64,000 bases of DNA, taken from NCBI RefSeq assembly GCF_000526335.1, contig NZ_JAFW01000001.1:3162001-3226000 (forward strand), read 5' to 3'. Positions 12,303 to 27,878 of the stretch are shown in pieces. The first letter of the stretch is position 1. Each line of letters starts with the position of its first letter. This stretch comes from Arthrobacter sp. 31Y. Its GTDB lineage: Bacteria; Actinomycetota; Actinomycetes; Actinomycetales; Micrococcaceae. A program made the position numbers and the translations under genes. The notes below the pieces were generated by a model. That model saw only the letters and a program-made list of their open reading frames with translations. It did not search any database and had not been told where the DNA came from.

Positions 12303-12911
12303 TTAGAGGGCCAGAATGGACGCGAGCGGCTCCCCGGATGTTATGCGGTCAAGGATGGCGGGCTCCGCCGCGTCCGAGGCGAGGGCCTTCCCCAGCACGT
12401 CGCGTGCAGCTTCCGGGGAGAGGACGATCAGCCCGTTGTCGTCGCCCAGGACCAGGTCTCCGGGGTTGACCTGCACGCCTCCGCAGTGCACCGGGACATT
12501 GACGGCGGAGCCGGTCCCGTACAGGCGTTTGGTGGTCAGGCAGGACGTCCCGCGGGCGAATACCGGCAGGCCGGTTTCCCGTAGTTCCAGGACGTCGGTG
12601 GCCACGCCATCAACCACGACGCCGGCCGCACCTTGAGCGAGCGCCGCGGCTGCCGTGACGGCCCCCACGGGCGCATGCCGGTGGTCGCCGCCCATGTCCA
12701 CCACCAGCACATCGCCTGGACGGAGCGCGAGGAGTGCGTGGTTCATGGCAATGGCGTCGTGGTCAGCGATCCGGACTGTGACGGCCGGCCCGGCAATTTT
12801 CACGTTTGCCAGCAGCGACTGGATGGCGGGGGAGACGAAGCCGTCCTCAAGGAAATGCCCGATGGTGGGGTAGCTGACATCGCTCAGGTCTTGCAGGAGT
12901 GTTGGGCTCAC
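12303..12911 (-). CDS. RraA-like aldolase/decarboxylase
   Basis: A 202-residue RraA-fold protein. It contains GPAVTVRIADHDAIAMNHAL, LRPGDVLVVDMGGDHRHAPV, GAAGVVVDGVATDVLELRET, and the tail VNPGDLVLGDDNGLIVLSPE with the conserved GD-N-G metal and pyruvate site. Relatives are 4-hydroxy-4-methyl-2-oxoglutarate aldolases with oxaloacetate decarboxylase activity, or RNase E inhibitors. The aldolase reading fits the catabolic setting. The GTG start overlaps the RidA stop (GTGA), so it is the third gene of an MHS transporter-RidA-RraA operon. It probably processes a 2-oxo or hydroxy acid intermediate. The substrate is unknown. Confidence 0.85.
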   Translation of the reverse strand: MSPTLLQDLSDVSYPTIGHFLEDGFVSPAIQSLLANVKIAGPAVTVRIADHDAIAMNHALLALRPGDVLVVDMGGDHRHAPVGAVTAAAALAQGAAGVVVDGVATDVLELRETGLPVFARGTSCLTTKRLYGTGSAVNVPVHCGGVQVNPGDLVLGDDNGLIVLSPEAARDVLGKALASDAAEPAILDRITSGEPLASILAL

Positions 12912-13330
12912 GGGGTTACCTCCGGTTTATGAGCGAGGACCTTCTGGGCAAGAACAGCCACGCATTCGATTTCCAAGGACACGCCCCAAAGGCTCACGCA
13001 CACGGTGGTCCGGGCCGGTTTGGCGGTGCCGAAGTACTCCACGTACACGCGGTTGTACTCCTCAAGCTGGTCCTGGCTTGTCAGGTAGGTGTTGACCTTG
13101 ACCACGTGGTCGAGGCTGGACCCTGCGGCTTCCAACACGCCCGCGAGGTTTTGGATGGTTTGCCGGACTTGCCCTTCGAAGGTGTCCGGCTGGTCATCCA
13201 GGCCGGTGATCGCGGGGATCTGGCCGGAGGTGAAGACGAAACCGTTGGCAATGACCGCCGGGGAAAAGGGCCCGACGGCGGGCGCCTGGCCGGGGATGCC
13301 GGCCAGGCGCTCGATGGTGCTTGGATTCAC
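12908..13330 (-). CDS. RidA-family imine/enamine deaminase
   Basis: A 140-residue RidA/YjgF-family protein. Features include GPFSPAVIANGFVFTSGQIP, QVRQTIQNLAGVLEAAGSSL, VVKVNTYLTS and the C-terminal ARTTVCVSLWGVSLEIECVA, where the family has the substrate-binding arginine and glutamate. RidA proteins hydrolyse reactive enamines and imines to 2-oxo acids. Members inside catabolic operons often serve a pathway-specific imine. Its GTG start overlaps the transporter stop and its own stop overlaps RraA, so the three genes are translationally coupled. This points to a pathway that passes through an amine oxidation or deamination step. Confidence 0.9.
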   Translation of the reverse strand: MNPSTIERLAGIPGQAPAVGPFSPAVIANGFVFTSGQIPAITGLDDQPDTFEGQVRQTIQNLAGVLEAAGSSLDHVVKVNTYLTSQDQLEEYNRVYVEYFGTAKPARTTVCVSLWGVSLEIECVAVLAQKVLAHKPEVTP

Positions 13331-14715
13331 TGGGCTGCCGCGGTTTCTGTTGCGGAGGAACCGGTGGAGGAAGAGCCGGCAGCAGCCGGTGCCTCATCGA
13401 CGGCGTCGATGTTGCCGTACCGGGTTTCGGTCAGCAGGAAGAGGGCCACCAAGGACAGCCCCGCTGCAGCCATGATGTACCAGGCGATCGAGGAGCTCTG
13501 TCCCGTCATGCCCAGGAGCCACGTGGTGACGAACGGGGTGGCGGCGCTGCCCAGCAGGCCGGACAGCATGTAAGCCACGGACAGGCCGGAGTAGCGGACC
13601 TTGGATCCGAAGAGCTCGGCGAGGAACGTGGCGATGGGCCCGTAGTTGGCGCAGAACGCGGTCATCATGGCCAGGTAGGCGACGAAGAGCAGTGCCACCG
13701 ACTTGGTGTCCATTAGCCAGAACATGGGGAAGGCGAGGGCGGCCTCGGCAGCAACACCGGCGAAGATGATGGGTTTGCGGCCGAACTTATCGGAGAGCTT
13801 TCCGAAGAAGGGGATGAGGAACAGTCCCAGGATGCAGGAGGCCAGGACCACCCAGAGCATCAGGCTCTCCGAGTGGCCGAGTTCCTTCTTGCCGTAGGAG
13901 ACGCCGGAGGCCACCAGCAGGGTGAAGGTGCTGCCTGTGGACAGGGTGGCGACGCCGCCCAGGACAACCTGCTTCCAGTACTTGGCCATCAGTGCGGCGA
14001 ACGGCATTTTGGCCTTGGCGCCGGCGGTCTTGACTGCTTGGAAGGAGGGGGTTTCCTCGATGTGCAGCCTGATGTAGATGCCCACGGTGACCAGGAGGAC
14101 CGAGGCCAGGAACGGAATGCGCCAGCCCCACGAGTACAGGGCCTCGGTGCTGACCGTGGACGCCACAATAAGGAAGGCCACATTGGCGATCAGGGTGCCT
14201 GCGGGGACGCCAACCTGCACCAGTGAACCGTAGAAACCGCGACGGGCGGGAGGAGCGTGTTCAACCGTCATGAGCACGGCGCCGCCCCATTCGCCGCCGA
14301 GGGCCAGGCCCTGGATGACGCGGAGGAACAGCAACAGCAGTGGCGCCATGATGCCGATGCTGTTGTAGTCCGGCAGCAGGCCGATGGCGAACGTTGCCGC
14401 TCCCATGGTCAGGAGGGAGACCAGCAGCATGGATTTGCGGCCCAGACGGTCACCGAAGTGGCCGAAGATGATGGCGCCCACCATGCGGGCAATGTAGGCG
14501 GAAGCGAATGTACCGAAGGCCAGCATGGTGCCGACGATCGGATCGAAGCTGGGGAAGAAGATCTTGTTGAAGACGAGGGCCGACGCTGTTCCGAACACGA
14601 AAAGGTCGTACCACTCGACGGTGGTGCCAATAACGCTGGCAAGGGCAATCTTGCGCATCTTGGCCAGGTCCAGCCTGGATGTGGATGCGGAGGAAGTATC
14701 TACCGTGTGGGCCAT
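13327..14715 (-). CDS. MHS-family MFS transporter (RidA operon)
   Basis: A 462-residue transporter with about 12 helices and clear MHS-family blocks: ALASVIGTTVEWYDLFVFGT, ARMVGAIIFGHFGDRLGRKS, VIQGLALGGEWGGAVLM and a C-terminal acidic and Ser/Ala-rich tail. The family moves carboxylates, osmolytes or aromatic acids with protons. The ATG at 14715 has GGAGA five bases upstream; the 14 upstream in-frame codons add nothing family-like. It leads the transporter-RidA-RraA operon and lies next to the PucR regulator. An inverted repeat at 14771-14794 sits in its promoter region. The substrate is probably that of the divergent catabolic genes. Confidence 0.9.
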   Translation of the reverse strand: MAHTVDTSSASTSRLDLAKMRKIALASVIGTTVEWYDLFVFGTASALVFNKIFFPSFDPIVGTMLAFGTFASAYIARMVGAIIFGHFGDRLGRKSMLLVSLLTMGAATFAIGLLPDYNSIGIMAPLLLLFLRVIQGLALGGEWGGAVLMTVEHAPPARRGFYGSLVQVGVPAGTLIANVAFLIVASTVSTEALYSWGWRIPFLASVLLVTVGIYIRLHIEETPSFQAVKTAGAKAKMPFAALMAKYWKQVVLGGVATLSTGSTFTLLVASGVSYGKKELGHSESLMLWVVLASCILGLFLIPFFGKLSDKFGRKPIIFAGVAAEAALAFPMFWLMDTKSVALLFVAYLAMMTAFCANYGPIATFLAELFGSKVRYSGLSVAYMLSGLLGSAATPFVTTWLLGMTGQSSSIAWYIMAAAGLSLVALFLLTETRYGNIDAVDEAPAAAGSSSTGSSATETAAAQ

Positions 14716-14770
14716 CTGATTCTCCGGATGGGGTGCGGGGACGAATGTCCGGTGCAAGGTAGCTACAACT

Positions 14771-14794
14771 ATGGTGTGTGCCGGATCACACCAT
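14771..14794. promoter_or_regulatory. Inverted repeat operator ATGGTGTG-N8-CACACCAT
   Basis: A perfect 8-base inverted repeat with an 8-base spacer lies 56 bases upstream of the transporter start. It is a good candidate binding site for the adjacent PucR-family regulator. No equal site was found in the divergent region at 16084-16219, although GTCACACAAA there could be a half-site. Confidence 0.6.
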
Positions 14795-14871
14795 CAATGG
14801 CATAAACTCCAGCAATTCGGGGCCAGGAATGTGGAAACACACACCGAAGCGCGGCGGCCGCCACAAGAGCG

Positions 14872-16083
14872 CTAGGCCCAGGCCACCACCAGCCGTGCCG
14901 TCTTCGCTGGAACGGCGAGGTCGATTCCCGTCAGCTCCTGGAAACGGTTGAGCCGGTTGAGGATGGTGTTGCGGTGGCAAAACAACTGCTCCGACGTGAC
15001 GGTGACATTGCCGGTGGCCAGGTAGTTCCGGACCGTCTCCAGCAGGCGTTCGCGCTCGCCGCCCCGGCACTCGGCCAGGGCCTCTTCGAGTTCCGCGGCG
15101 AGGTCCAAGCCTGCGTCCTGCAGGTTTTGCTGGGCCAGCCGTGCCCACGCGGAATCGGCTGACAGCGGACCGGAATCTCGTGGCCGCAGCAGAGCGGCCA
15201 GGCTCTCGGCCGTGCGGGCGGCCCCGGGGAGGGCCCGCAGCCCAAGGACTTCGGGCACGTAGCCGCAGGGGATATTGACGACGCCGGGTGGCAGCTGCTG
15301 GCCTTCGGTTTCAGGGCTGCGCGTCTCGCCAAGGGGCTCAGGACCCCGCGTCCGAACAGCCGGCAGCGCCCAGAAAACGTAGGTGTTGCCGCCGGACTCG
15401 TGGAGGAACAAGCGCTGCCGGGTGTGCTGCCCCGCTCCGAACTGGGATGTGGCGGCGCGAAGCCGGGCGCCGGGTTCGCCGCTTGCTGCCACCAAGGCGA
15501 AGCGTTGCTCAGGGTTGATGCCCAGTGCCGCAGCTACTTGGGAGGACGTTTCCAGTGAGGGGCTGCTCTGGTTGAACAGGCGTGCAATGAACTCCCGTTG
15601 GATGCTGGACTCTTCCTGTGCCATCCTGACGCGCTCGGTCAGGTAGCTGGTGTGCGTCCGGGTAGCGAATTCGTCCACCACGCTCCACACCTGGTCCACC
15701 CGGGTGGCCAGCAATGCGGCGTCCTCGGTGTGGGCGATCTCCAGGAGCTCGGCCCAGAGAATGCTGAAGTCCAGCCGTACGGCAGAGGTGAGGGACTCCG
15801 GTGGAATGCCGGCCCGGGCGCGCTTGGAGCCAAGGTCCGAAGCGAAGTCGAGCAGGCCATCGCGGCTGTCCGTCCTGCCGTTCCTCAAGCCGCTGATCAG
15901 CCGCCGGAAAGTCTCCCGTGCAGTCTCCTGAATTTCCAGGACCGTCACTTGGCTTTCGCCGTACTCGGGGATCTCCCGGACCCTGGTGGTGAAGGCCTGG
16001 GCCAGGGTGTCCAGCCTGCCTTCGAGCTCATCCACTAACTCGGCCCAACGAACAGAATGCCCTGAAGTATCGGAATTGTGCAT
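14872..16083 (-). CDS. PucR-family transcriptional regulator
   Basis: A 403-residue regulator. The C-terminal 70 residues contain the PucR-type helix-turn-helix: LLETVRNYLATGNVTVTSEQ, LFCHRNTILNRLNRFQELTG. The N-terminal two thirds resemble the RsbRD-like and GGDEF-like sensory segments typical of the family (TSYLTERVRMAQEESSIQRE in the middle). PucR/CdaR regulators usually activate catabolic genes for purines, sugar acids and similar substrates. It lies between the RidA operon and the divergent ThDP-amidohydrolase operon and is the obvious regulator of both. A TAGAAT box six bases before its ATG and no ribosome site suggest a leaderless transcript. Confidence 0.88.
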   Translation of the reverse strand: MHNSDTSGHSVRWAELVDELEGRLDTLAQAFTTRVREIPEYGESQVTVLEIQETARETFRRLISGLRNGRTDSRDGLLDFASDLGSKRARAGIPPESLTSAVRLDFSILWAELLEIAHTEDAALLATRVDQVWSVVDEFATRTHTSYLTERVRMAQEESSIQREFIARLFNQSSPSLETSSQVAAALGINPEQRFALVAASGEPGARLRAATSQFGAGQHTRQRLFLHESGGNTYVFWALPAVRTRGPEPLGETRSPETEGQQLPPGVVNIPCGYVPEVLGLRALPGAARTAESLAALLRPRDSGPLSADSAWARLAQQNLQDAGLDLAAELEEALAECRGGERERLLETVRNYLATGNVTVTSEQLFCHRNTILNRLNRFQELTGIDLAVPAKTARLVVAWA

Positions 16084-16219
16084 TCACACATTCTAGCGCC
16101 CTGATTCCGTGGTGGATTGCTAGTCTTTTTGGGAAAAACTACTGGCACTATGGATTGAGTCACACAAATTTGCCCGGGCATCCCCAACGTCCGGTCCCGT
16201 TCGCACTCATGGAGCAACT
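16084..16219. promoter_or_regulatory. Divergent promoter region, pucR/catabolic operon
   Basis: This 136-base region must hold promoters for the regulator (minus) and for the plus-strand operon. On the minus strand TAGAAT (16090-16095) is placed for a start at or next to the pucR ATG. On the plus strand GGAG lies seven bases before the transporter ATG. No strong palindrome is evident. Confidence 0.5.
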
Positions 16220-17551
16220 ATGGCAAGCACGGTCAGCGGAGCCACGGACGCAAGTCCCACGGCAGTACGCGTCGTCGATGAAAGCGTTACCAAGAAGGTG
16301 GCCCTGGCTGCCCTCGTGGGCACTGCACTGGAATGGTACGACTTCTTCCTTTTCACCACAGCCGCTGCGCTGGTGTTCAACGCACAGTTCTTCGTTTCCC
16401 AGGACCCCTTCGTGGCGGCCATGGGATCCTTCGCCACACTCGCGGTCGGCTTCGTTGCCCGCCCGATCGGTGGCTTCATCTTCGGCGCCCTCGGGGACAA
16501 GGTTGGCCGCAAGAAGATCCTCATGGTCACCATCGTGGGCATCGGCATTGTCACCGGCCTCATCGGTCTCCTGCCGAACTACATGACCATCGGCTTGGCC
16601 GCCCCCATCTTGCTGGTAGCCCTGCGCATCGTCCAGGGCCTCGCCGTCGGCGGTGAGTGGAGCGGCGCGGTAATTATCGCCGTCGAGAATGCTCCGGTGG
16701 AGAAGCGCGCACGCTACGCCGCCCTGCCGCAGATCGGTTCGCCGATCGGCACCATCCTGTCCTCCGGTGGCTTCTTCGGCATGCTGTTCCTGGTGGGCCA
16801 GAGCAACTTTGACGCCTGGGGCTGGCGCATACCCTTCATCGCAGCCATCCCGCTGCTGGCTATCTCACTGTGGATCCGCAGCCGCCTCAGCGAATCGCCC
16901 GAATTCGAAGCCCTCATGGAGTCCGGCGAGACCGAACACGCTCCCATCCGCGGCGTCCTGAAGAACAGTTGGCGCCAGATCCTGGTGGGCATGTGCTCCG
17001 CGTTGCTGGGCATCGGCGGTTTCTACCTCATCACCAGCTTTGTGGTCTTCTACGGCACCAAGGTCCTCAAGCTGCCCTCTGAACTCCTGCTCATGGGCAC
17101 CCTGCTTGCTGCAGCCCTGGAGATCGGCGCCCTCATCTGGGCCGGCCGCCTGGGTGAAAAGTTCGGCGCCAGCAAGGTCATCCTGTGGGGCGGCGTGGCT
17201 TCGGCCATCATTGCCATCCCGGTGTTCCTCGCCATCGATAGCCGCGACCCCGTCCTGGTTGTCCTGGGCATGATGATCGGCGTCGCCGTCCTCTCCATCC
17301 CGTACGCCGTCTCCGGCACGGCCCTGACCGCGCTGTTCGCCACGAAGGTTCGTTATACCGGCGTCGCCATCACCTCCAACACTGCCGGCGTCATCTCCGG
17401 CTTCGTGCCGCTGATCGCCACCGCCTTGGTAGCAGCCAACAACTCCTTCTGGCCCGGCGCCATCATCCTGCTGGTGGTCTCCGTACTGACGGCACTCTCC
17501 GGATTGTTCCTCCCCGCCCTTTCCATCGAAGAAGAAGGAATGAAGCATTGA
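16220..17551 (+). CDS. MHS-family MFS transporter (ThDP operon)
   Basis: A 443-residue transporter and the first gene of the plus-strand catabolic operon. It shows the MHS pattern ALVGTALEWYDFFLFTTAAA, ARPIGGFIFGALGDKVGRKK, VQGLAVGGEWSGAVIIAVEN and SWRQILVGMCSALLGIGGFY, with about 12 membrane helices. It is clearly related to, but distinct from, the transporter of the divergent operon. Having two MHS permeases around one PucR gene suggests uptake of two related compounds, or uptake plus export. The stop overlaps the TTG start of the ThDP enzyme (TTGA). The start is supported by GGAG. The substrate is unknown. Confidence 0.92.
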   Translation: MASTVSGATDASPTAVRVVDESVTKKVALAALVGTALEWYDFFLFTTAAALVFNAQFFVSQDPFVAAMGSFATLAVGFVARPIGGFIFGALGDKVGRKKILMVTIVGIGIVTGLIGLLPNYMTIGLAAPILLVALRIVQGLAVGGEWSGAVIIAVENAPVEKRARYAALPQIGSPIGTILSSGGFFGMLFLVGQSNFDAWGWRIPFIAAIPLLAISLWIRSRLSESPEFEALMESGETEHAPIRGVLKNSWRQILVGMCSALLGIGGFYLITSFVVFYGTKVLKLPSELLLMGTLLAAALEIGALIWAGRLGEKFGASKVILWGGVASAIIAIPVFLAIDSRDPVLVVLGMMIGVAVLSIPYAVSGTALTALFATKVRYTGVAITSNTAGVISGFVPLIATALVAANNSFWPGAIILLVVSVLTALSGLFLPALSIEEEGMKH

Positions 17552-19182
17552 GCACAACCACCGCCGGCCACTTGATTGTTGGCCAACTCGAACGGGCAGG
17601 CGTCAAGCGTGTGTACACCGTCCCCGGCGAGAGCTTCCTCGATGTCCTTGACGGCCTGCACGGCTCGCCCATCCAGAACGTGGTGGCCCGCCAGGAAGGC
17701 GGTGCCGGGTTCATGGCACTGGCCGAAGGCCGCCTCACCGAACTGCCGGGCGTTGCTATGGTGACCCGTGGGCCGGGTGCGGCCAACGCCTTCATAGCCA
17801 TCCACACCGCCTACCAGGACGCCACTCCGCTCATCCTTTTCGTGGGCCTGATTCCGGTGGCCGACCGCGGGCGTGAGTCCTTCCAGGAATTCGATATCAA
17901 CGCATGGTTCGGCAGTACCGCCAAGAAGGTAGTGACTCTCGACGACGCCGCTTCCGCCGCCCGCGTGGTGGACGACGCCATCTTCACCGCCCTGAGCGGA
18001 CGCCCCGGCCCCGTGGTGATCGGCCTCCCGGAAGACGTGTTGGTGCACGTCGTGGAGAACGCCACTGTGGAACCCCGCAAGGTTGCCCGCCCTGAGCCTG
18101 CCGCGGCGGACCTGAACGAGCTGAACCGGAAGCTGACGGCGGCGCGCAAGCCGCTGGTCGTCGTCGGCGGAGAAGGCTGGACCCAGGAATCCGGCGAGCA
18201 GCTGGCCGCTTGGGCGAGTCGCCACAGCATTCCGGTGGTGGCCGATTTCCGCGCATACGACGCCGTCCCGCACCGCAGCGACGCCTACGCCGGCTTCCTT
18301 GGCTACGGCCGCAGCGACGCGAACGCCCAGCGCCTGGACGACGCCGATCTGATCGTTTTTGTTGGCTGCGTCCGCGGCGACGTCCTCTCCGACGGATACA
18401 AGCGCGGACTCGACGCCGAAACCGTCGTAGTCAACGCCGATGCCAATCTCCTGGGCCACTTCGGCCGCGTGGACCAGCACATGGTTGCGGACGTCACCGC
18501 GTTCGCCAACGCCCTGGCGACCGGCAACGCGACCACCAACGCAACCGGTAACCGCGAGGAAGGCTGGTTCGCCAGTGCCCGCGCCGATCATCTCAACTTC
18601 TCCACTCCGGCGCCCGACGGCGGCATCGGCGTCGATTTGGGCGTTGCCATGGAGGTCCTCAAAAAGGAAATGGCCGACGACGCCGTCCTCACCTTCGGTG
18701 CCGGAAACCATGCCCTGTGGCCCGCACGCTACCTTGACCACAACTCGGCCAATTCCCTGGCCGCTCCGCGCAACGGCGCCATGGGCATGGGTATCCCCGC
18801 AGCCGTGGCAGCCTCGCTCGCTTATCCCGGCCGTCAGGTCATCTCCGTGGCAGGCGACGGTTGTTTCATGATGAACGGCCAGGAGATCGCCACGGCCATG
18901 GGCTACGGCGCCGCATTCATCGTCCTGGTGGTGGACAACGGCATCTTTGCCACCATCCGCGAACATCAGGAAGCGCACTACCCGGACCGGCCCTCAGGCA
19001 CGCACATGACCAACCCGGACTTCGCCGCACTCGCCCGTTCCTACGGCGGTTTCGGCGAGCGCGTGGACCGCACGGAAGACTTCGCAGCCGCGTTCCGCCG
19101 CGCCGTCGACTCCGGCCTTCCGGCCTTGTTGCACCTGCCGCAGGACCCCACCACGCGTTCCCCCAAGACTTCAACAAACTGA
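17548..19182 (+). CDS. Thiamine diphosphate-dependent enzyme (ALS-like)
   Basis: A 544-residue ThDP enzyme of the acetolactate synthase/2-oxo acid decarboxylase class. The N-terminal PYR domain has VYTVPGESFLDVLDGL and VARQEGGAGFMA with the cofactor-activating glutamate. The C-terminal PP domain has VAGDGCFMMNGQEIATAMGY with DNGIF downstream, matching the GDG-N motif. The middle domain runs about 190-330. The TTG start overlaps the transporter stop and has AAGGA upstream. It could decarboxylate a 2-oxo acid to an aldehyde, which the next gene product would oxidise, or perform carboligation. Key active-site residues do not allow a firm choice of reaction. Confidence 0.9.
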   Translation: MSTTTAGHLIVGQLERAGVKRVYTVPGESFLDVLDGLHGSPIQNVVARQEGGAGFMALAEGRLTELPGVAMVTRGPGAANAFIAIHTAYQDATPLILFVGLIPVADRGRESFQEFDINAWFGSTAKKVVTLDDAASAARVVDDAIFTALSGRPGPVVIGLPEDVLVHVVENATVEPRKVARPEPAAADLNELNRKLTAARKPLVVVGGEGWTQESGEQLAAWASRHSIPVVADFRAYDAVPHRSDAYAGFLGYGRSDANAQRLDDADLIVFVGCVRGDVLSDGYKRGLDAETVVVNADANLLGHFGRVDQHMVADVTAFANALATGNATTNATGNREEGWFASARADHLNFSTPAPDGGIGVDLGVAMEVLKKEMADDAVLTFGAGNHALWPARYLDHNSANSLAAPRNGAMGMGIPAAVAASLAYPGRQVISVAGDGCFMMNGQEIATAMGYGAAFIVLVVDNGIFATIREHQEAHYPDRPSGTHMTNPDFAALARSYGGFGERVDRTEDFAAAFRRAVDSGLPALLHLPQDPTTRSPKTSTN

Positions 19183-19196
19183 CCGGAGCCCTCACC

Positions 19197-20603
19197 GTGA
19201 TCCAGCTTCAGAACATCATCAACGGCGAGTCCGTGGACGCCGCGGCCAGCCTGCCGTTCTTCGACCCCGCCACCGGCCAGCAGATCGGCACCGCGCCGGA
19301 CAGTGACGCTGCCGCCGTCGACGCCGCTTTCCAGGCCGCTGCCGCAGCTTTCAAGAGCTACAAGCGCACGACGCCGGGAACGCGCCAGTCGCTGCTGTTG
19401 CAGCTGGCTGACCTCATCGAGGCGAACGTTGACCGTCTGCTCGAGGCCGAGGTTGCCTGTACCGGCAAGCCTTCCGCCCTCACCAAAGAGCTCGAAATCC
19501 TGCGCGGCGCGGACCAACTGCGCTTCTTCGCCGGGGCGTGCCGGGTGGTTTCCGGAACTGCCCAGACGGAATACGTGGAGGGGTTCTCTTCCACCATCCG
19601 GCGCGAACCCATCGGCGTCGTCGCCCAGATTACGCCGTGGAACTACCCGTTCATGATGGCCATCTGGAAGATCGGTCCTGCCCTCGCTGCGGGCAACACT
19701 TTGGTCCTCAAGCCTGCCGACACCACCCCCTGGTCCACTCTGGTCCTGGGTGCGCTGGCGCAGCAGGTCTACCCGGCCGGCGTAGTGAACATCGTTTGCG
19801 GCGGCCGCGAAGCCGGCGCTGCGATGGTGGAGCATGACATCCCGGAGATGGTCTCCATTACGGGCTCCACCCGGGCCGGCGCGCAGGTCATGTCTGCGGC
19901 GTCCAAGACGCTGAAGGACGTTCACCTGGAGCTTGGCGGCAAGGCGCCCGCCGTGGTGTTTGCCGACGTCGATATCCAGCGGACCGCCAGCGAAATCGCT
20001 CTGGCTGCCTTCTTCAACGCCGGGCAGGACTGCACTGCCGTGACCCGCGTCCTGGTGCATCAGGACATTCATACGGAGTTCGCAGCAGCCCTGGCTGACG
20101 CCGCCTCCGCTTTGAAAGTTGGCGGAGAAGAAGCCGATCTTGGCCCGCTCAACAGCGCCGCGCAGTTGGAGCGAGTGGAGGGCTTTATGTCCCGCCTGCC
20201 CGCCAACGCCCGCGTCCTTTCCGGCGGCAAGCGCACCGGAACCGGCTTCCACTTTGAGCCAACGGTGATCGACGGCGTCTTCCAGACAGACGAGGTGGTG
20301 TGCGACGAAATTTTCGGCCCGGTGCTGACGGTCCAGCCGTTCGCCACCGAGGAAGAAGCGATCGAACTCGCCAACGGCACCAAGTACGCGCTGGCCTCCA
20401 GCGTGTGGTCCGAGAACCATGGCGTGGTGACCCGTGTATCCAACGAGCTGGACTTCGGGGCCGTCTGGATCAACTGTCACCAGGTGATCCCGGCCGAAGC
20501 ACCGCACGGCGGATTCAAGCATTCGGGCACGGGCAAGGACCTCTCCGTCTATGGACTTGAGGACTATACGCGCATCAAATCCGTCACCACCTCCCACCGC
20601 TAG
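19197..20603 (+). CDS. Aldehyde dehydrogenase (PatD/YdcW-like)
   Basis: A 468-residue NAD(P)-dependent aldehyde dehydrogenase. Hallmarks are ITPWNYPFMMAIWKIGPALA, GSTRAGAQVM, the general-base glutamate in LELGGKAPAVVF and the nucleophile in FFNAGQDCTAVTRV. The overall pattern (RFFAGACRVVSGTAQTEYVE, YGLEDYTRIKSV at the end) is closest to gamma-aminobutyraldehyde dehydrogenases. The GTG at 19197 is chosen because GGAG lies eight bases upstream, just after the ThDP stop. The frame is open far upstream, but that part overlaps the ThDP gene and has no family sequence. It likely oxidises the aldehyde formed by the ThDP enzyme or an amino-aldehyde. Confidence 0.92.
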   Translation: MIQLQNIINGESVDAAASLPFFDPATGQQIGTAPDSDAAAVDAAFQAAAAAFKSYKRTTPGTRQSLLLQLADLIEANVDRLLEAEVACTGKPSALTKELEILRGADQLRFFAGACRVVSGTAQTEYVEGFSSTIRREPIGVVAQITPWNYPFMMAIWKIGPALAAGNTLVLKPADTTPWSTLVLGALAQQVYPAGVVNIVCGGREAGAAMVEHDIPEMVSITGSTRAGAQVMSAASKTLKDVHLELGGKAPAVVFADVDIQRTASEIALAAFFNAGQDCTAVTRVLVHQDIHTEFAAALADAASALKVGGEEADLGPLNSAAQLERVEGFMSRLPANARVLSGGKRTGTGFHFEPTVIDGVFQTDEVVCDEIFGPVLTVQPFATEEEAIELANGTKYALASSVWSENHGVVTRVSNELDFGAVWINCHQVIPAEAPHGGFKHSGTGKDLSVYGLEDYTRIKSVTTSHR

Positions 20604-20611
20604 AACCGGAC

Positions 20612-22348
20612 ATGAAACTCGACCTCCTCCTGCGGAACGCAGACATCATCACCATGGATCCGGACCACCCGGTAGCCAGTTCCCTGGGCATCTGGAAGGG
20701 CCGCATCGTGGGCCTGGACGACGATCTGGATGGCTTGGACGCCGTTCAGGTACTCGATCTTGGCGGTGCCACCGTCACTCCAGGCTTCATCGATGCCCAC
20801 TGCCACACCACGTGGTTCGGGCTGGGCCTGGCGGAACTGGACGTGTCTGGTGCCCGCGGCCTGGAGGAGCTGTATGAGCTTCTCCGCGGTGCTGTTGCCC
20901 ACGCCGGGAGCGACGGCGAGGGCTGGCTCTTCGCTACCGGATTCAGCCAGACACAGCACGGCGGGGCCTTCCCGGACATCGCCGAGCTGGACCGCATCAC
21001 GGGGGAGCAGCCGCTGTTCATGCGCCACAACTCCGGGCATATGGCCGTGGTCAACACAGCCGCGTTGCGGCTGGCAGGTGCGGAGTCGCCGTCGTTCCCG
21101 GATCCCGACGGCGGAGCAATCGTCCGCGACGCAGCGGGACTTCCCACGGGACTCGTCCAGGAGACGGCCCAGGAACTGATCCAGCAGCTGATCCTGCCGT
21201 ATTCGTTGGAGGACATCGAAGACGCCCTTGAGAGGGCCACGTTGCACTACGCCTCCGAGGGCATCACGAGTTTCACCGAGGCCGGGGTGGGCGGCGGGTG
21301 GATCGGGCACAGCCCGGCTGAGCTTGCTGCCTACCAGAGCGCCTCCGCCAACGGCCGCTTGCATGCCCGTGCTCAGGTCATGCCGGTGCTGGATGTGCTG
21401 CATGGCCTCAACGGGCATGCTTCTGACAGTGTTGGTGCCGGTCCTGCCGGGCTGGATCTTGGCATCACCAGCGGATTCGGCAATGACTACCTGTCCCTCG
21501 GCCCCGCAAAGGTGTTCCTGGATGGCTCGCTCCTGGGCGAAACCGCAGCCGTGAGCCACGAGTTCTGCAGCCATGGCCACAAGGACAACAGGGGCAACAC
21601 CGGCTACTTCCAAGCGGACCCTGCCCAGCTGCGGGAACGCATCGAGGCCGCCTACGCCGCCGGGTGGTCCATTGCGGCCCACGCCATCGGGGACAGGGCC
21701 GTTGACCTCGCGGTGGATATCATCACCGACTGCCAAGCCGTGTACGGGCAGCGCCGCTTGCCCAACAGGATCGAGCACGCCTCCATGACGCGCCCCGAGC
21801 AGCTGGCAAGGCTCGCGGACGCAGGAATTGCCGTGACACCCCAGGCAAGCTTCTTCCGCGACGGTGGGGACGGCATGACCGCGTCCCTCGGGCCGGACCG
21901 TTTACCGTGGGCCTACCGGGCAGCAAGTTTCCTGGAAGCAGGAGTGGTGCTCGCGGGAAGCTCGGACCGGCCAGTAGCCGACGGGAACGTGCTTCGCGGC
22001 ATGCAGGCCTTCGTGGATCGCCGGACCGGGTCCGGGGCCGTCTTCGGGAACCCGGCCGAACGTCTCACCCCACACCAGGCACTCGCCGCCTACACGTCCG
22101 GAGCCGCTGCGGCAACGGGGTCTCTGGCCGAGAAGGGCACTCTGACACCTGGCAAACTTGCCGACTTCGCCGTCCTGTCCGATTCACCGTTGACGGCATC
22201 CAGCATCAGCGAACTGCACGTCCTGGCCACCGCCGTCGGAGGCCGCTTTACCCACCAATCAACCCACTTCCACACGGAACCTTCCTCGGAAAGTCCGTAC
22301 GCGTCCCGTGTTTCAGCGGGCCGTGTATCAGCAACCCAAAGCTCATAG
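20612..22348 (+). CDS. Metal-dependent amidohydrolase (YtcJ-like)
   Basis: A 578-residue amidohydrolase of the YtcJ type. The beta-sandwich start LLLRNADIITMDPDHPVASS leads to the metal motif GFIDAHCHTTWFG. Later metal and substrate segments are HAIGDRAVDLAVDII, RIEHASMTRP and AGSSDRPVADGNVLRGMQAF with the catalytic aspartate. The C-terminus (about 545-578) is Ser/Thr/His-rich and less conserved. The family hydrolyses cyclic or acyclic amides, formamides and carbamates. Here it would open or cleave an amide ahead of the M20 hydrolase encoded next. The gap to the aldehyde dehydrogenase stop is only 8 bases, so it is in the same operon. Confidence 0.9.
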   Translation: MKLDLLLRNADIITMDPDHPVASSLGIWKGRIVGLDDDLDGLDAVQVLDLGGATVTPGFIDAHCHTTWFGLGLAELDVSGARGLEELYELLRGAVAHAGSDGEGWLFATGFSQTQHGGAFPDIAELDRITGEQPLFMRHNSGHMAVVNTAALRLAGAESPSFPDPDGGAIVRDAAGLPTGLVQETAQELIQQLILPYSLEDIEDALERATLHYASEGITSFTEAGVGGGWIGHSPAELAAYQSASANGRLHARAQVMPVLDVLHGLNGHASDSVGAGPAGLDLGITSGFGNDYLSLGPAKVFLDGSLLGETAAVSHEFCSHGHKDNRGNTGYFQADPAQLRERIEAAYAAGWSIAAHAIGDRAVDLAVDIITDCQAVYGQRRLPNRIEHASMTRPEQLARLADAGIAVTPQASFFRDGGDGMTASLGPDRLPWAYRAASFLEAGVVLAGSSDRPVADGNVLRGMQAFVDRRTGSGAVFGNPAERLTPHQALAAYTSGAAAATGSLAEKGTLTPGKLADFAVLSDSPLTASSISELHVLATAVGGRFTHQSTHFHTEPSSESPYASRVSAGRVSATQSS

Positions 22349-22356
22349 GGGAGACC

Positions 22357-23613
22357 ATGACCATCACCACCAGTTTCACCACCCAGGACACCGCCTTCGT
22401 GCAGGACTTCCGGACCATGAGCGCTTTCGGTGCCACGGCGAACGGCGGCGTGGACCGGCAAGCCGCAACCATTCCCGACGGCGCACAGCGCCGCTGGCTC
22501 GCCGGCCTCCTGGAGGAACACGGCTTCACGGTGAAGTTCGATCACGCCGGCAACCAGTGGGGCCTCTACGAAGCCGTGCCCGGTGCTCCCTTCGTGGTGG
22601 TGGGCTCGCACATGGATTCGCAGCCGACGGCGGGACGTTACGACGGCGCGTATGGCGTCCTCGCTGCTGCCCACGCTGCGTTCCGCCTGGCAGCCCGCTG
22701 GGAAGCCGGCGCCACGGCACCCAAGTTCAACCTCGCCGTCGTCAACTGGTTCAACGAGGAAGGCAGCCGCTTCAAGCCGTCCATGATGGGCTCGTCCGTC
22801 TACACCGGCAAGCTGGAACTCGAGGACGCACTCAACACCCAGGATGCCGCCGGGGTCACCGTGCGCGATGCTTTGGACGCGATCGGCTGCCGTGGAACGT
22901 TTGAGGGGCCGGAGGCAGCGTACTGCGCCGAGATCCACATCGAGCAGGGCCGCAGCATGGAGCGCGAAGGCGTCACCATCGGGCTGGTCAGCTCCAACTG
23001 GGCCGCGAACAAGTACGAGTTCGTGGTTCATGGGGAGCAAGCACACACCGGTTCCACGGTGATTGCGGACCGCAAGGATGCCCTGCTCGGGGCCTCGATG
23101 CTGGTGGTTGCCGCGCGCGAACTCGCCGACCGCTTTCCCGGTGCCCTGCACACCTCGGTAGGTCAGCTCAACGTCTACCCGAACTCGCCCGTGGTGGTCC
23201 CGTCCCGCGTGAACCTGCTGCTGGACCTGCGCAGCGCCGACGAAGCCGTCCTGGCCGAGGCCGACGCCCTGCTGCACGCCCGCATCACGGAGATCGAACG
23301 GCTGGCCAACGTGTCCGTTGAGAAGCACCACTCACACTCGTGGGCCGTCACCCCGTATCAGCCCGAGGGCGTGGAGCTCGCGGCCAAGGTCGCGGCGGAC
23401 CTCGGGTTGTCCAATAAGGAAGTCATGACCCTCGCCGGGCACGACTCCACCAACATGAAGGACCTCGTCCCCACCGTGATGCTCTTCGTGCCCAGCGTGG
23501 ACGGCATCTCCCACAACGAACACGAGTACACCACGGACCAGGACATCGTGGCCGGCCTCACCATGCTCACCGAGGTCGTCGGCCGCCTGTGCGACGGGGC
23601 GCTGGAGGACTAG
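22357..23613 (+). CDS. M20 family carbamoylase/ureidohydrolase
   Basis: A 418-residue zinc-dependent hydrolase of the N-carbamoyl-amino acid amidohydrolase, allantoate amidohydrolase and beta-ureidopropionase group. Visible metal ligands and motifs are VVGSHMDSQPTAGRYDGAYG, NWFNEEGSRFKPSMMGS, EIHIEQGRSMEREG and the C-terminal LAGHDSTNM and SHNEHEYT. The dimerisation lid (about 210-330) is present. GGGGAG upstream fixes the ATG at 22357; a longer open frame overlapping the amidohydrolase is not used. It is the last gene of the operon. It most likely removes a carbamoyl or ureido group released by the preceding amidohydrolase step. The substrate is unknown. Confidence 0.92.
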   Translation: MTITTSFTTQDTAFVQDFRTMSAFGATANGGVDRQAATIPDGAQRRWLAGLLEEHGFTVKFDHAGNQWGLYEAVPGAPFVVVGSHMDSQPTAGRYDGAYGVLAAAHAAFRLAARWEAGATAPKFNLAVVNWFNEEGSRFKPSMMGSSVYTGKLELEDALNTQDAAGVTVRDALDAIGCRGTFEGPEAAYCAEIHIEQGRSMEREGVTIGLVSSNWAANKYEFVVHGEQAHTGSTVIADRKDALLGASMLVVAARELADRFPGALHTSVGQLNVYPNSPVVVPSRVNLLLDLRSADEAVLAEADALLHARITEIERLANVSVEKHHSHSWAVTPYQPEGVELAAKVAADLGLSNKEVMTLAGHDSTNMKDLVPTVMLFVPSVDGISHNEHEYTTDQDIVAGLTMLTEVVGRLCDGALED

Positions 23614-23627
23614 CTGTAACGGTAGGA

Positions 23628-24368
23628 CTAGCTGTACTGGCTTGCTTGCGGTGCCGGCGTTCGGTCAACCGGTGGGCTTTCCACCACGATCGACGCCGGC
23701 GCTGCGCCGCCCGAGGCATCAGGATTGGCGATGTACAGGACATCCTCGCTGATCCGGGCCTCGATTTTCGCTTCCTTGAGGCGTTCCAGCAGTGGTTCCA
23801 ACCCGTCGTCGTACTCGAACGCGAGATCGCCGTTGGCGCCATCCGCCCCGTGGATCACCCGCAGGATTCCGCCGTTCTTGGTGGTGAACGTGGCCGATTC
23901 GTCGTCCTCGTTCCGGGGCCGGGCGCCGATGTTACTGAGCGCGTTGGCCGCCAGGCCCGCCAAGGGGCTGATCCAGGTGGCCACCACTGTCAGTGCCGGG
24001 TGGGCGTTGCCAGATGTGGTCCAGGTGCCATCCGCTGCCCGTTCCGCAGGGAAAGCGAAGAACTCAAAGCCGTCGTCTGCGGAAATTCGCACCGTAATTC
24101 CGTCAGGGCCTTCGTGAAGCTCTGCCTGGGTGCCGGCTTCCTCGGTACGCCGGGCGAATTCCTCCAGATTTCCCACCTCGACGCCAAAGACCGTGGATCC
24201 GTCCAGCGGATGGCCGTGCTGCACGGCGGCGAGCGCGAGGCGACCCGAACCGGCGTCGAACTCCCGCCACTCGCCTTCGTCCACGGTTCTGTCGAGGCCC
24301 AGCGCTTGCAGGAGCGTGGACCACTCCTCGGGCCTGGACGTGTAGTGGATGGGGCGGGATCGCAACAT
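23628..24368 (-). CDS. Two-domain VOC (glyoxalase-like) protein
   Basis: A 246-residue protein made of two vicinal-oxygen-chelate halves. The first (about 5-115) has PIHYTSRPEEWSTLLQALGL, VFGVEVGNLEEFARRTEEAG and DDGFEFFAFP. The second (about 120-225) has VVATWISPLAGLAANALSNI, a degenerate repeat of the same fold. VOC proteins include glyoxalases, dioxygenases and resistance proteins, and no substrate can be assigned. The start has GGAGGAGC immediately upstream. It is convergent with the M20 gene and divergent from the YdeI-like gene, with a G-rich block in the shared upstream region. The C-terminal 20 residues are Pro/Ser-rich. Confidence 0.82.
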   Translation of the reverse strand: MLRSRPIHYTSRPEEWSTLLQALGLDRTVDEGEWREFDAGSGRLALAAVQHGHPLDGSTVFGVEVGNLEEFARRTEEAGTQAELHEGPDGITVRISADDGFEFFAFPAERAADGTWTTSGNAHPALTVVATWISPLAGLAANALSNIGARPRNEDDESATFTTKNGGILRVIHGADGANGDLAFEYDDGLEPLLERLKEAKIEARISEDVLYIANPDASGGAAPASIVVESPPVDRTPAPQASQYS

Positions 24369-24378
24369 TGCTCCTCCT

Positions 24379-24418
24379 GGGTTGGGTCTTGCCGGGGTGG
24401 GGTCTTGTCTGGGTTGGG
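24379..24418 (+). promoter_or_regulatory. G-rich block, possible G-quadruplex
   Basis: Six runs of three or four G lie within 40 bases on the plus strand (24379, 24384, 24394, 24399, 24411, 24416), built from repeats of GGGTTGGG and GGGGTGGGG. It sits 11 bases upstream of the VOC gene start and about 80 bases before the YdeI-like gene. It meets the loop spacing expected for a quadruplex, but folding is unproven. Confidence 0.5.
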
Positions 24419-24500
24419 TCCTGGCGATACTGCGGCGTCGCTTCCAGCCTATGCCGCGTGGCCTTCCCGGGGACCGTCGGTTTCACAGGAGAATGAACGC

Positions 24501-25094
24501 ATGGCAATTGAGCTTGAGGAACTACAGGTCAAAAACGGGGCCGCGTGGCGTGACTGGCTTTCGGCGAATGCCGCCCAGAGCCCCGGCGTGTGGCTGATCC
24601 TGCACAAGAAGGGCGGCGCGGTCACGGAGCTGGACTACGACGCCGCCTTGGACGAAGCCCTGTGCTTCGGCTGGATCGACGGACAGGCGAAGAGCCGTGA
24701 CGACGAAAGCTACATGCAGCGCATGACGCCACGAGGCCGCAAGAGCATCTGGTCAGCGCGCAACGTGGGCCATATTGCGCGGCTGGAGTCCGAGGGCAAA
24801 ATGACCGACGCCGGACGAGCCGCCGTCGAGGCCGCAAAAGCTGATGGACGCTGGGAAGCCGCCTACGCAGGCCCCGCCGACTCGGTTGTCCCGGAGGACC
24901 TCGCCGCAGCAATAGCAGCCGTTCCTGAAGCCCAAGCCATGTTTGACGTCCTGACCTCCCAGAACCGCTTCGCCCTCATTCACCGCACCAACGGGGTCAA
25001 ACGGGCAGAGACCCGGGCGCGCAAGATCGCCGGTTTCGTGGAGATGCTGGCCCGCCACGAAACCCCGTACCCGCAGAGGAAGCGTCCGGCCTAG
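24501..25094 (+). CDS. YdeI/OmpD-associated family protein
   Basis: A 197-residue protein of the YdeI-like (OmpD-associated, bacteriocin-protection) family. Recognisable segments are WRDWLSANAAQSPGVWLILH, LDEALCFGWIDGQAKSRDDE, MQRMTPRGRKSIWSARNVGH and the C-terminal NRFALIHRTNGVKRAETRAR. The molecular function in Gram-positive bacteria is not established. AGGAG nine bases upstream supports the ATG at 24501. It is convergent with the iron transporter ATPase gene, with only 15 bases between the stops. It appears to be a stand-alone gene. Confidence 0.82.
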   Translation: MAIELEELQVKNGAAWRDWLSANAAQSPGVWLILHKKGGAVTELDYDAALDEALCFGWIDGQAKSRDDESYMQRMTPRGRKSIWSARNVGHIARLESEGKMTDAGRAAVEAAKADGRWEAAYAGPADSVVPEDLAAAIAAVPEAQAMFDVLTSQNRFALIHRTNGVKRAETRARKIAGFVEMLARHETPYPQRKRPA

Positions 25095-25109: not shown

Positions 25110-26276
25110 TCAGGCCTCGAAGGGGAATGCCACGCCCTCGCCCACAACACGAAGGCACAACTCGGTACCCGGCCTGGTGATGGAGGCGTTCCAATGCCTG
25201 ATGGTGATGATCTCGCCGCCACCCGGGTAGCGGTGGCTGTTGCCGGAAGCGCCGCCGTCGGGGGCCGTGTATTCGCCCAACTTGATACGAACCGTGGTTT
25301 CGGGACCGAAATAATCGGTGTCCACAACTACCCCTCGGATGGGCCCATCCGAGGCAATGCGAATTTGCTCTGGCCGTAGCATGAGCTGCACCTTTCCCTG
25401 CGCCGGCGGGCGCCGCACCGGAATTCCGCCAAGCGAGCACGTGGCCAGTGAGCCTTCCATCCAGGCGTCAAGAATCACGGCGTCGCCAAGGAATTCTGCC
25501 GTGGCGCGATCAGCCGGACGGGTGTAGACAACAAAGGGATTGCCAATCTGGGCCAACTTGCCGCCGCGCATGATGGCTACCTGGTCAGCGAAAGAGAGCG
25601 CTTCCGCTTGATCGTGGGTCACCAGGATGGTGGTCACACCGGCAGCATTGAGCACCTTGGCGACGGCCCTGCGCGTGGCTACCCGAAGTCCGGCGTCGAG
25701 CGCCGAAAACGGTTCATCAAGGAGCATGAGTTCAGGTTCCCGGGCCAGTGCGCGGGCCAAAGCGACCCGCTGCTGCTGCCCGCCGGACAATTGGTGCGGC
25801 CGGCGTTTGGCCATGGACGCATCCAAGGACACCATTTCGAGCAGATTCTGCACCCGCGACCTCACGGCGCCGCGACCGCCGTCGAGCTTTCCTGTATCCA
25901 AGCCGAACGCGACGTTCTGCCCCACCGTCAGGTGCGGAAACAGGGCCCCGTCCTGAGCGACGTAACCTACCTGCCGTTTGTGCGCAGGCACCCACTCGCC
26001 GTCTCCGGCTACCCGGGAACCGTTCAGGCTGATGGATCCGGTGTCCGGATGCTCAAAGCCCGCGATCAACCTCAAAAGCGTGGTCTTGCCTGAACCCGAA
26101 GGGCCCACGATGGCAGTGGTGCCGCCCTTGGCGACAGAAAGGTTTACGCCCTTCAGAACAGCCTGGGAACCGAAGTTCTTGGTGACCTCAGAGATATCCA
26201 GGTGCGCATTCGTGGTGGGCGCCACCGAGGGGGCCACCCGGGGTGCCGGAAGCCTGGAAGGGGATTGTTCGGTCAC
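25110..26276 (-). CDS. fbpC: Iron(III) ABC transporter ATP-binding protein
   Basis: A 388-residue ABC ATPase of the ferric/spermidine/sulfate class. Walker A is VGPSGSGKTTLLRL, the Q-loop is VGYVAQDGALFPHLTVGQNV, the signature is LSGGQQQRVALARALAREPE, and Walker B is LMLLDEPFSALD, followed by the switch histidine in LVTHDQAEAL. A TOBE domain occupies the C-terminal 90 residues. The first 25 residues are a Pro/Ala-rich extension. The GTG start overlaps the permease stop (GTGA). With the permease and binding protein it forms an FbpABC-type importer. The iron assignment rests on the binding protein and the iron box upstream. Confidence 0.92.
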   Translation of the reverse strand: MTEQSPSRLPAPRVAPSVAPTTNAHLDISEVTKNFGSQAVLKGVNLSVAKGGTTAIVGPSGSGKTTLLRLIAGFEHPDTGSISLNGSRVAGDGEWVPAHKRQVGYVAQDGALFPHLTVGQNVAFGLDTGKLDGGRGAVRSRVQNLLEMVSLDASMAKRRPHQLSGGQQQRVALARALAREPELMLLDEPFSALDAGLRVATRRAVAKVLNAAGVTTILVTHDQAEALSFADQVAIMRGGKLAQIGNPFVVYTRPADRATAEFLGDAVILDAWMEGSLATCSLGGIPVRRPPAQGKVQLMLRPEQIRIASDGPIRGVVVDTDYFGPETTVRIKLGEYTAPDGGASGNSHRYPGGGEIITIRHWNASITRPGTELCLRVVGEGVAFPFEA

Positions 26277-27874: not shown

Positions 27875-27878
27875 AGAA

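Follow-up and report, generated by a model that had tools for sequence, protein, structure and literature searches.

What do nine adjoining genes, arranged as two oppositely directed operons with a PucR-family regulator gene between them, do together in Arthrobacter sp. 31Y? The island they form occupies positions 12303–23613 of the window, which is the whole stretch of DNA analysed here (64,000 nucleotides; positions 3,162,001 to 3,226,000 of contig NZ_JAFW01000001.1, assembly GCF_000526335.1); the host genome comprises 5.08 Mb in two contigs, and its nearest protein relatives carry the names Arthrobacter or Paenarthrobacter. An earlier note on this DNA had proposed that both operons serve a single catabolic pathway for a cyclic or ureido-type nitrogen compound, an interpretation that is partly supported. 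The two operons are linked; as to function, the island would be one PucR-linked pathway converting omega-ureido amino acids of the citrulline/homocitrulline class into omega-amino acids, a reading to which we give a little less than an even chance. We infer the substrate, each reaction and their order from sequence.

According to gene coordinates and family models, all nine genes named in the earlier note are present in the island. On the minus strand, RraA-like, RidA-family and MHS transporter 1 (MHS1) genes are coupled as had been described, with 4-base overlaps joining RraA to RidA and RidA to MHS1; on the plus strand follow MHS transporter 2 (MHS2), a thiamine diphosphate (ThDP) enzyme, an aldehyde dehydrogenase (ALDH), a YtcJ-type amidohydrolase and an M20 hydrolase, of which MHS2 and the ThDP enzyme overlap by 4 bases and the other joints are gaps of a few bases. 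Within the genus, YtcJ matches at E-values up to 1e-150 occur in 67 of 206 genomes, and 44 loci were defined by a YtcJ of at least 77% identity (from 45 places listed outside the own genome, with G233 left out). The full nine-gene set is found in 32 of these 44 loci, PucR with the whole plus operon in 39, and the RraA-RidA-MHS1 trio in 33. The trio is missing from L004 and L062, which do have the plus operon; in L067 the set is complete except that a diverged pair (47 and 33 percent) stands for the window-type ThDP enzyme and ALDH, and a diverged ThDP/ALDH pair also accompanies the trio, MHS2, YtcJ and M20 in L096 and L097. At L048, a TnpB-type gene adjoins a shortened PucR match, and the ThDP and M20 genes are missing there.

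The co-occurrence of all genes that the earlier note expected in actinobacteria holds within the genus, but elsewhere the set is found as two smaller modules. Module B, PucR|MHS2-ThDP-YtcJ-M20, occurs in other genera of the family; the 37 family loci selected through YtcJ include 31 with MHS2, 30 with PucR, 30 with M20 and 20 with the ThDP enzyme, and none with the window-type ALDH. Module A, RraA-RidA-MHS1-PucR|ThDP-M20, was found in other genera at nine loci, with RraA and PucR in all nine and RidA, MHS1, the ThDP enzyme and M20 in eight each; an ArgE/DapE-type deacylase (PRK06837, 644.7 bits vs a cut-off of 376) is present in five, and a different ALDH lies beside RraA on the opposite strand in L051-L053. 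In G122 and G062 both modules are present, at separate places. Since MHS2, YtcJ and the window-type ALDH occur in 0/9 of these module-A loci, they are optional parts, and a standing as obligatory steps is unsupported. In the M20 tree, the window copy falls among the RraA-linked rows (17 rows, 99/93), apart from a clade of YtcJ-only rows (15 rows, 99/93); in the ThDP tree, too, the window enzyme is separate from the YtcJ-only clade (16 rows, 98/93), and its placement among RraA-linked rows is less well supported (81/77). Because of these trees and the gene content of the modules, the island looks like module A to which MHS2, YtcJ and the ALDH were added. Of 295 family genomes, 16 carry the RraA-like protein, and in 15 of these a ThDP enzyme is encoded no more than 8 kb away (exception G360); among the 15 places in the same 295 genomes where the ThDP enzyme has at least 69% identity, RraA lies within 8 kb in 14 (exception G137).

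A wider set of named loci (L103-L182), the best 80 of 167 relatives, was found via RraA with two peptide patterns, one of which contained the RraA Thr discussed below; genes were counted within 10 kb of RraA, which is itself present throughout because it was the query. In 28 loci of the Arthrobacter group, the ThDP enzyme occurs in 27, RidA in 25, MHS1 in 25, ALDH in 23, YtcJ in 20 and M20 in 16, the island being longer than the 10-kb flank. Eight loci of other actinobacteria have RidA (8), MHS1 (8), M20 (8), ThDP (7) and ALDH (7); the 34 Pseudomonas loci all have RidA, MHS1, a class II aldolase and a GhrA-like dehydrogenase, with M20 in 26; and in ten Burkholderiales loci MHS1 occurs in 10, M20 in 9, ThDP in 5, ALDH in 5 and GabT in 3. 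The MHS1 relatives beside RraA in the named loci show 45 to 100 percent identity. Many loci are near-copies, L103-L182 partly repeat the G-numbered genomes, and L153/L188, L183/L185, L062/L186 and L084/L187 are each probably the same genes in two rows, so these counts are not independent events.

Could two unrelated pathways merely be adjacent here? The plus operon without the trio in L004 and L062, as well as the separate occurrence of MHS2-YtcJ-M20 and the RraA module in other genera, would suit such an arrangement. However, in Cryobacterium, Agrococcus and Agromyces (L178, L180, L181) a single co-directional operon, MHS1-RidA-RraA-ThDP-M20-ALDH, spans the divide, the window ThDP enzyme and M20 lie outside the YtcJ-only clades with M20 in the RraA-linked set (99/93), and a palindrome is common to both transporters; mere adjacency is accordingly very improbable. 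The idea of the earlier note that the two operons are one unit is thus borne out by recurrent co-localisation in several genera, by the co-directional operon in these three Microbacteriaceae loci and by the shared palindrome. A diverged form of the set recurs in Cupriavidus/Burkholderiaceae (ThDP about 40, M20 38–40 and ALDH 37–38 percent), and a Klebsiella plasmid operon has the order ALDH-M20-ThDP-RraA-MFS-RidA. This plasmid (L204, Klebsiella pneumoniae NZ_CP065834.1) is conjugative and carries the whole set with an adjoining GABA (4-aminobutyrate) transaminase gene; a 1.0-Mb record of Arthrobacter sp. StoSoilB13 labelled plasmid (L201) holds the whole island together with chromosomal flank up to tgt. 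In Burkholderiales (L137, L138, L139, L143, L151, L166, L174), a CitE/RipC-like C-C lyase gene follows RraA.

The PucR gene (14872..16083; PF13556) lies between the operons, as had been stated; being on the minus strand upstream of MHS1 (13327..14757, minus; PF07690/PF00083), it diverges from just one of the two operons, that on the plus strand, which begins with MHS2 (16220..17551, plus; PF07690/PF00083). It stands beside the island or its modules in the 9/9 module-A loci and 30/37 family YtcJ loci counted above. The palindrome TGTGTGNNNNCACA, whose pattern was derived from the MHS1 side alone, is conserved in the gap upstream of MHS1 in an alignment of 31 loci; it marks one predicted operator upstream of MHS1 (14827..14843, minus strand; pattern site 14830), and the same palindrome marks another that overlaps the PucR start upstream of MHS2 (16077..16093, plus strand). 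Together with its reverse complement, TGTGTGNNNNCACA has 76 sites in 3.31 Mb of loci, 42 of them in the interval from PucR to MHS1, 25 in that from PucR to MHS2, 7 elsewhere upstream of MHS1 or MHS2 and 2 in other places, counts that the relatedness of the loci inflates. The 17-base pattern TGTGNNTTNNCACATTC, devised after its two window sites had been viewed and written from both, occurs in the genome at these two sites with no third. A second, looser palindrome, TGTG-N6-CACA, lies upstream of MHS1 at 14777..14790 within the conserved block TGTGaTc....ACACA. It is predicted from these patterns that both transporter operons are PucR-linked and that the palindromes are operators.

The RraA, RidA, MHS and PucR proteins miss every specific NCBIfam cut-off shown. 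The ThDP enzyme (17548..19182, plus; PF02775/PF02776/PF00205), a predicted 2-oxo acid decarboxylase, passes the PRK08199 cut-off (594.6 vs 539) and misses that of the 5-guanidino-2-oxopentanoate decarboxylase PRK07524 (207.4 vs 500). The ALDH (about 19197..20603, plus; PF00171) is aminobutyraldehyde dehydrogenase-like as previously suggested: PRK13473 is its best model, although its 592.5 bits stay under the cut-off of 615, and its best solved relatives are 1wnb and 6c43, of which 6c43 bears the name gamma-aminobutyraldehyde dehydrogenase; in Achromobacter, PuuC is nearest to the ALDH. The genomic context points to what becomes of the carbon. In the Burkholderiaceae loci L138, L143 and L151, GabT-ThDP-M20-ALDH are co-directional with GabT first, and divergent from MHS1-RraA-CitE-like; on the Klebsiella plasmid, the 4-aminobutyrate transaminase gene lies two genes beyond the operon. 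Weaker GabT relatives (41–46 percent) occur near YtcJ in L016, L041, L098, L099 and L100, and since such transaminases are common, part of this weak association may be chance. The GabT context and the aminobutyraldehyde-type ALDH suggest an omega-amino product. In addition, M20 adjoins an ornithine cyclodeaminase-family gene in Sulfitobacter, Agrobacterium and Methylobacterium plasmid loci, and the Sulfitobacter gene passes the cut-off for pyrroline-/piperideine-2-carboxylate reductase (385 vs 322); such a reductase beside M20 would be expected if a 2-oxo-5-ureido or 2-oxo-6-ureido acid were decarbamoylated.

The PucR regulator and the M20 family name, allantoate amidohydrolase, may call to mind a ureide or purine pathway from allantoate to glyoxylate, in which PucR would be the purine regulator and the ThDP enzyme glyoxylate carboligase. 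In Methylobacterium nodulans, genes for ureidoglycine aminohydrolase and ureidoglycolate lyase are indeed found about 1.2 kb from RraA-RidA, and Pseudomonas loci have the GhrA-like reductase. In glyoxylate carboligase, however, Val replaces the catalytic Glu, and the island ThDP enzyme keeps a Glu aligned with that of acetolactate synthase; the M20 scores are far under the cut-offs for AllC (183.9 vs 597.75) and allantoate deiminase (226.8 vs 532), and no other ureide gene family is among the families named in the island. The glyoxylate carboligase/allantoin reading was rejected on the kept Glu and the AllC score, and a ureide pathway has the slimmest chance of all the alternatives weighed here.

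The amine-oxidising step is missing locally, as the earlier note had remarked, and a candidate for it is seen in relatives. A flavin-enzyme operon adjoins the module in Rhodococcus (L150), Streptomyces (L176/L179) and Arthrobacter (L153/L190/L191); it encodes a flavin enzyme of the amine-oxidase family along with a carbon-nitrogen hydrolase and another M20 (about 64 percent), in most cases with an amino-acid permease, and in L186 and L187 a permease, hydrolase and flavin enzyme adjoin PucR. The flavin enzyme matches 3we0 over its full length (791.9 bits). A report on this enzyme type (PMC5832979) states that lysine is converted to both the keto acid and the amide, and that Asp238 binds Lys, Orn and Arg at their charged end. 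At the position of Asp238 (chain index 258, as deduced from the named Trp235 and Cys254), Asn is found in 16/16 rows of M20-linked flavin enzymes; unlinked enzymes have Asp in 34 of 38 rows and Ser in 4, the four Ser rows being L062/L186 and L084/L187, those beside PucR. The searches behind these rows covered, at class level, 66 places in 64 of 394 genomes, with 20 of the places examined, and in the genus 8 further places of at least 75% identity plus 13 of many at 65–69%. The Asn prediction was noted first and 40 more regions were then inspected, in which linked copies had Asn in 9/9 and unlinked copies Asp in 32/32. M20-linked copies thus lack the Asp238 expected for cationic substrates, and the host genome's unlinked copy keeps it; the Asn suggests a neutral, ureido-like end group. 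In the citrullinase CtlX (PMC9007349), an Asn for Asp was read as suiting an amide-like end group; on the other hand, the D238N mutant of the Pseudomonas enzyme showed no activity with any substrate assayed in the earlier-cited study (PMC5832979), which fits an altered substrate and does not demonstrate one. A Rhodococcus oxidase (PMC2962901) converts L-citrulline into 2-oxo-5-ureidovalerate. The missing oxidation may accordingly have a candidate in this DavB-like flavin amino-acid oxidase/monooxygenase with its amidase; as keto acid and amide are both products of this enzyme type, it would explain why RidA/ThDP/ALDH and an amidase stand side by side. The M20-linked Asn clade (L208, L228-L234, L150, L153, L176, L179, L190, L191) comprises candidates for citrulline-type 2-monooxygenases. 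In the own genome, the region C1:3752000-3771900 (L185) carries a flavin gene of the lysine-monooxygenase type, a permease gene and a further gene whose start appears alanine racemase-like, as judged by eye.

The M20 hydrolase (about 22357..23613, plus; PF01546) passes the cut-offs of PRK09290.2-1 (450.4 vs 424) and of the hydantase model TIGR01879 (273.5 vs 204), and is predicted to remove a carbamoyl group. Its carboxylate-binding Arg is kept in 139/139 copies, this role being given to Arg291 of the R. radiobacter enzyme (L-carbamoylase/beta-ureidopropionase) in PMC10952681. The YtcJ-type amidohydrolase (Amidohydro_3; 20612..22348, plus; PF07969), predicted to be an optional entry step, does not belong to the dihydropyrimidinase/allantoinase group, its best such score being 38.8 bits vs 357.85; the start positions of YtcJ and M20 are the analyst's choice. 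Should YtcJ open a hydantoin- or lactam-like ring and M20 cut an alpha-N-carbamoyl group, with oxidation elsewhere and RidA, the ThDP enzyme and ALDH as finishing steps, the two would be expected to remain linked like a hydantoinase-carbamoylase pair even where the ThDP enzyme is absent, and this is seen in the family loci L031-L037, which have MHS2, PucR, YtcJ and M20 and no ThDP enzyme; the M20 scores above the hydantoinase/carbamoylase cut-off and the kept Arg agree with it. Against this, the YtcJ score lies far under that of the dihydropyrimidinase/allantoinase group, 0/9 module-A loci have YtcJ, which makes ring opening dispensable, and the Asn-type monooxygenase and GABA transaminase contexts indicate the omega end, so that ring opening is an unlikely reading. 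The order proposed earlier, in which carbamoyl removal precedes amine oxidation, is possible; GabT, the Asn-type monooxygenase with amidase and the pyrroline-2-carboxylate reductase nevertheless agree better with removal at the omega end.

The PNSxN motif contains an Asn that has a role in M20 carbamoylases; three of 18 solved M20 relatives were viewed in alignment, and all three carry it. Val takes the place of this Asn in the window and in 102/102 further actinobacterial copies of at least 50% identity, which raises the alternative that the same logic applies to another neutral group on the omega-nitrogen (acyl, amide or a polar side chain) and that M20 is an unusual amidase. The ArgE/DapE-type deacylase of five module-A loci would suit it, and an Asn at the Asp238 position suits any neutral end group. 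On the other hand, the best M20 scores are those of allantoate amidohydrolase/carbamoylase models, and distant proteobacterial partners in the same context carry the usual Asn in 36/36, with Gly in three alphaproteobacterial copies. An unusual amidase is judged improbable, to about the same degree as ring opening, and acyl or amide groups may nonetheless take the place of the ureido group.

The RraA-like protein (12303..12911, minus; PF03737) deserves separate consideration. Aldolases of the RraA fold have the motif D-x20-R-D, and here the Arg position is Thr (motif DGVATD) in 50/50 copies, in 10/10 plasmid copies and in 130/130 of a larger set, 80 loci of which were found with a Thr-containing pattern. 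The Asp position before the Arg is Ala in 122, Thr in 5, Ser in 2 and Asp in 1 of the 130, and the metal-site Asp after it is kept in 130/130. The Arg of HMG/CHA aldolases (R123, P. putida numbering) is thus absent; in a report on the P. putida enzyme, R123K lowered kcat/Km from 8.3e4 to 27 (PMC5065237). With Thr at the catalytic Arg, the aldol cleavage that had been ascribed to this protein is unsupported. The RidA-family protein (12908..13330, minus; PF01042), predicted to hydrolyse 2-imino acids, keeps the PAR-motif Arg in 48 of 49 aligned copies, one row having PAL.

Under the omega-ureido reading, the two MHS transporters would import the substrate, which YtcJ here, or the ArgE/DapE deacylase in relatives, might free from an acylated or cyclic form. 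An enzyme outside the island, possibly the flavin oxidase/monooxygenase that adjoins it in some relatives, would convert the amino acid to a 2-imino acid, and RidA would hydrolyse the imine, yielding a 2-oxo acid that the ThDP enzyme would decarboxylate to an omega-ureido aldehyde; ALDH would oxidise the aldehyde to the omega-ureido acid, and M20 would release GABA or 5-aminovalerate by removing the carbamoyl group. The monooxygenase and amidase may be a bypass reaching the same omega-ureido acid, and in alphaproteobacteria the 2-oxo acid may be decarbamoylated instead, giving a cyclic imine for the reductase. RidA, the ThDP enzyme, ALDH and M20 would thus be parts of one chain, as had been supposed. 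A citrulline- or homocitrulline-like substrate is favoured by the Asn-type context, GabT, the reductase and the citrulline oxidase taken together.

Several known systems resemble parts of this scheme. The hyu system for hydantoin utilisation in Arthrobacter uses a hydantoinase and an L-carbamoylase, and the island likewise brings together a transporter, an amidohydrolase-superfamily enzyme and an M20 carbamoylase-family enzyme; its amidohydrolase, however, is of the YtcJ/Amidohydro_3 type, its M20 has Val for the usual Asn, RidA, RraA, the ThDP enzyme and ALDH are extra, and module A has no amidohydrolase. A hyu-type hydantoinase was rejected because YtcJ (PF07969) does not score as a cyclic amidase (allantoinase 38.8 vs 357.85 bits). 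The arginine transaminase route employs a 2-oxo-5-guanidinopentanoate decarboxylase and a guanidinobutyraldehyde dehydrogenase and would share with the island a 2-oxo acid, a ThDP decarboxylase, an aminobutyraldehyde-type ALDH, a C4 omega-N acid and GABA, but M20 replaces guanidinobutyrase and RidA and RraA are added; membership was rejected on the PRK07524 score (207.4 vs a cut-off of 500). Like DavB/DavA and the arginine monooxygenase/4-guanidinobutyramide hydrolase pair described in arginoketide producers (PMC10322714), a flavin monooxygenase and a carbon-nitrogen hydrolase adjoin the island in some relatives; unlike DavB/DavA, the M20-linked copies have Asn for Asp238, the third gene is an M20, and none is in the window. 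The CtlX route (PMC9007349) shares the Asp-to-Asn change and ornithine cyclodeaminase-family neighbours, here in alphaproteobacteria, but CtlX is arginine deiminase kin, a family not identified in the island. Ergothioneine ErtD/ErtE also unite an amidohydrolase with an M20 N-carbamoyl hydrolase, and membership was rejected since the scores are far under the cut-offs (27.3 vs 650 and 239.8 vs 520).

Several findings weigh against the omega-ureido pathway as drawn. The RraA-like protein has no place in it, and the Val at the PNSxN Asn means that the window M20 may not be a carbamoylase. In the 34 named Pseudomonas loci the ThDP enzyme is absent (0/34), with the aldolase and GhrA-like dehydrogenase instead; RidA is absent from the ten Burkholderiales loci (0/10), and a GABA transaminase is missing near 77 of the 80 named loci. 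For the shared regulation, no strict site precedes MHS2 in 36 of 60 loci with an MHS2 of more than 80% identity, and loci of other genera are mostly without the palindrome. The Asn-type flavin enzyme is not in the host genome, where the only strong relative is an Asp type about 580 kb away; among the matches listed in 204 genus genomes, 3 of 11 Asn-type places of at least 75% identity are beside the island (L153/L188, L190, L191), others lie elsewhere in island-bearing genomes, and G302 and G344 have the Asn type and no YtcJ match at E-values up to 1e-150. Furthermore, the Asn rows all belong to a single similarity group, and their association with M20 may therefore reflect one event.

Beside the island, ABC (ATP-binding cassette) transporter genes of the 2-aminoethylphosphonate/iron type lie on the minus strand at 25110-28928, and an open reading frame at 23589-25094 has a YdeI/OmpD-associated domain confined to its last 70 residues, the true gene probably being shorter.

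No published description of the gene combination was found in the open-licence PubMed Central literature, which is weak evidence of absence; the island looks like an undescribed combination of known enzyme families in one catabolic operon set. A bolder claim, which we consider doubtful, is that it represents a new type of aerobic pathway, in which actinobacteria and proteobacteria shorten omega-ureido amino acids before decarbamoylation, with a monooxygenase clade changed from Asp to Asn (cationic to ureido substrates), an M20 clade in which Val has replaced Asn, and an RraA clade that catalyses a new reaction other than aldol cleavage. If the omega-ureido reading is right, it would give a function to the co-travelling PRK08199 ThDP enzymes, PRK09290.2-1 M20 hydrolases and Arg-less RraA-like proteins, a RidA protein would gain a concrete catabolic job, and the change of Asp238 to Asn in M20-linked amino-acid monooxygenases would become a residue-level prediction.

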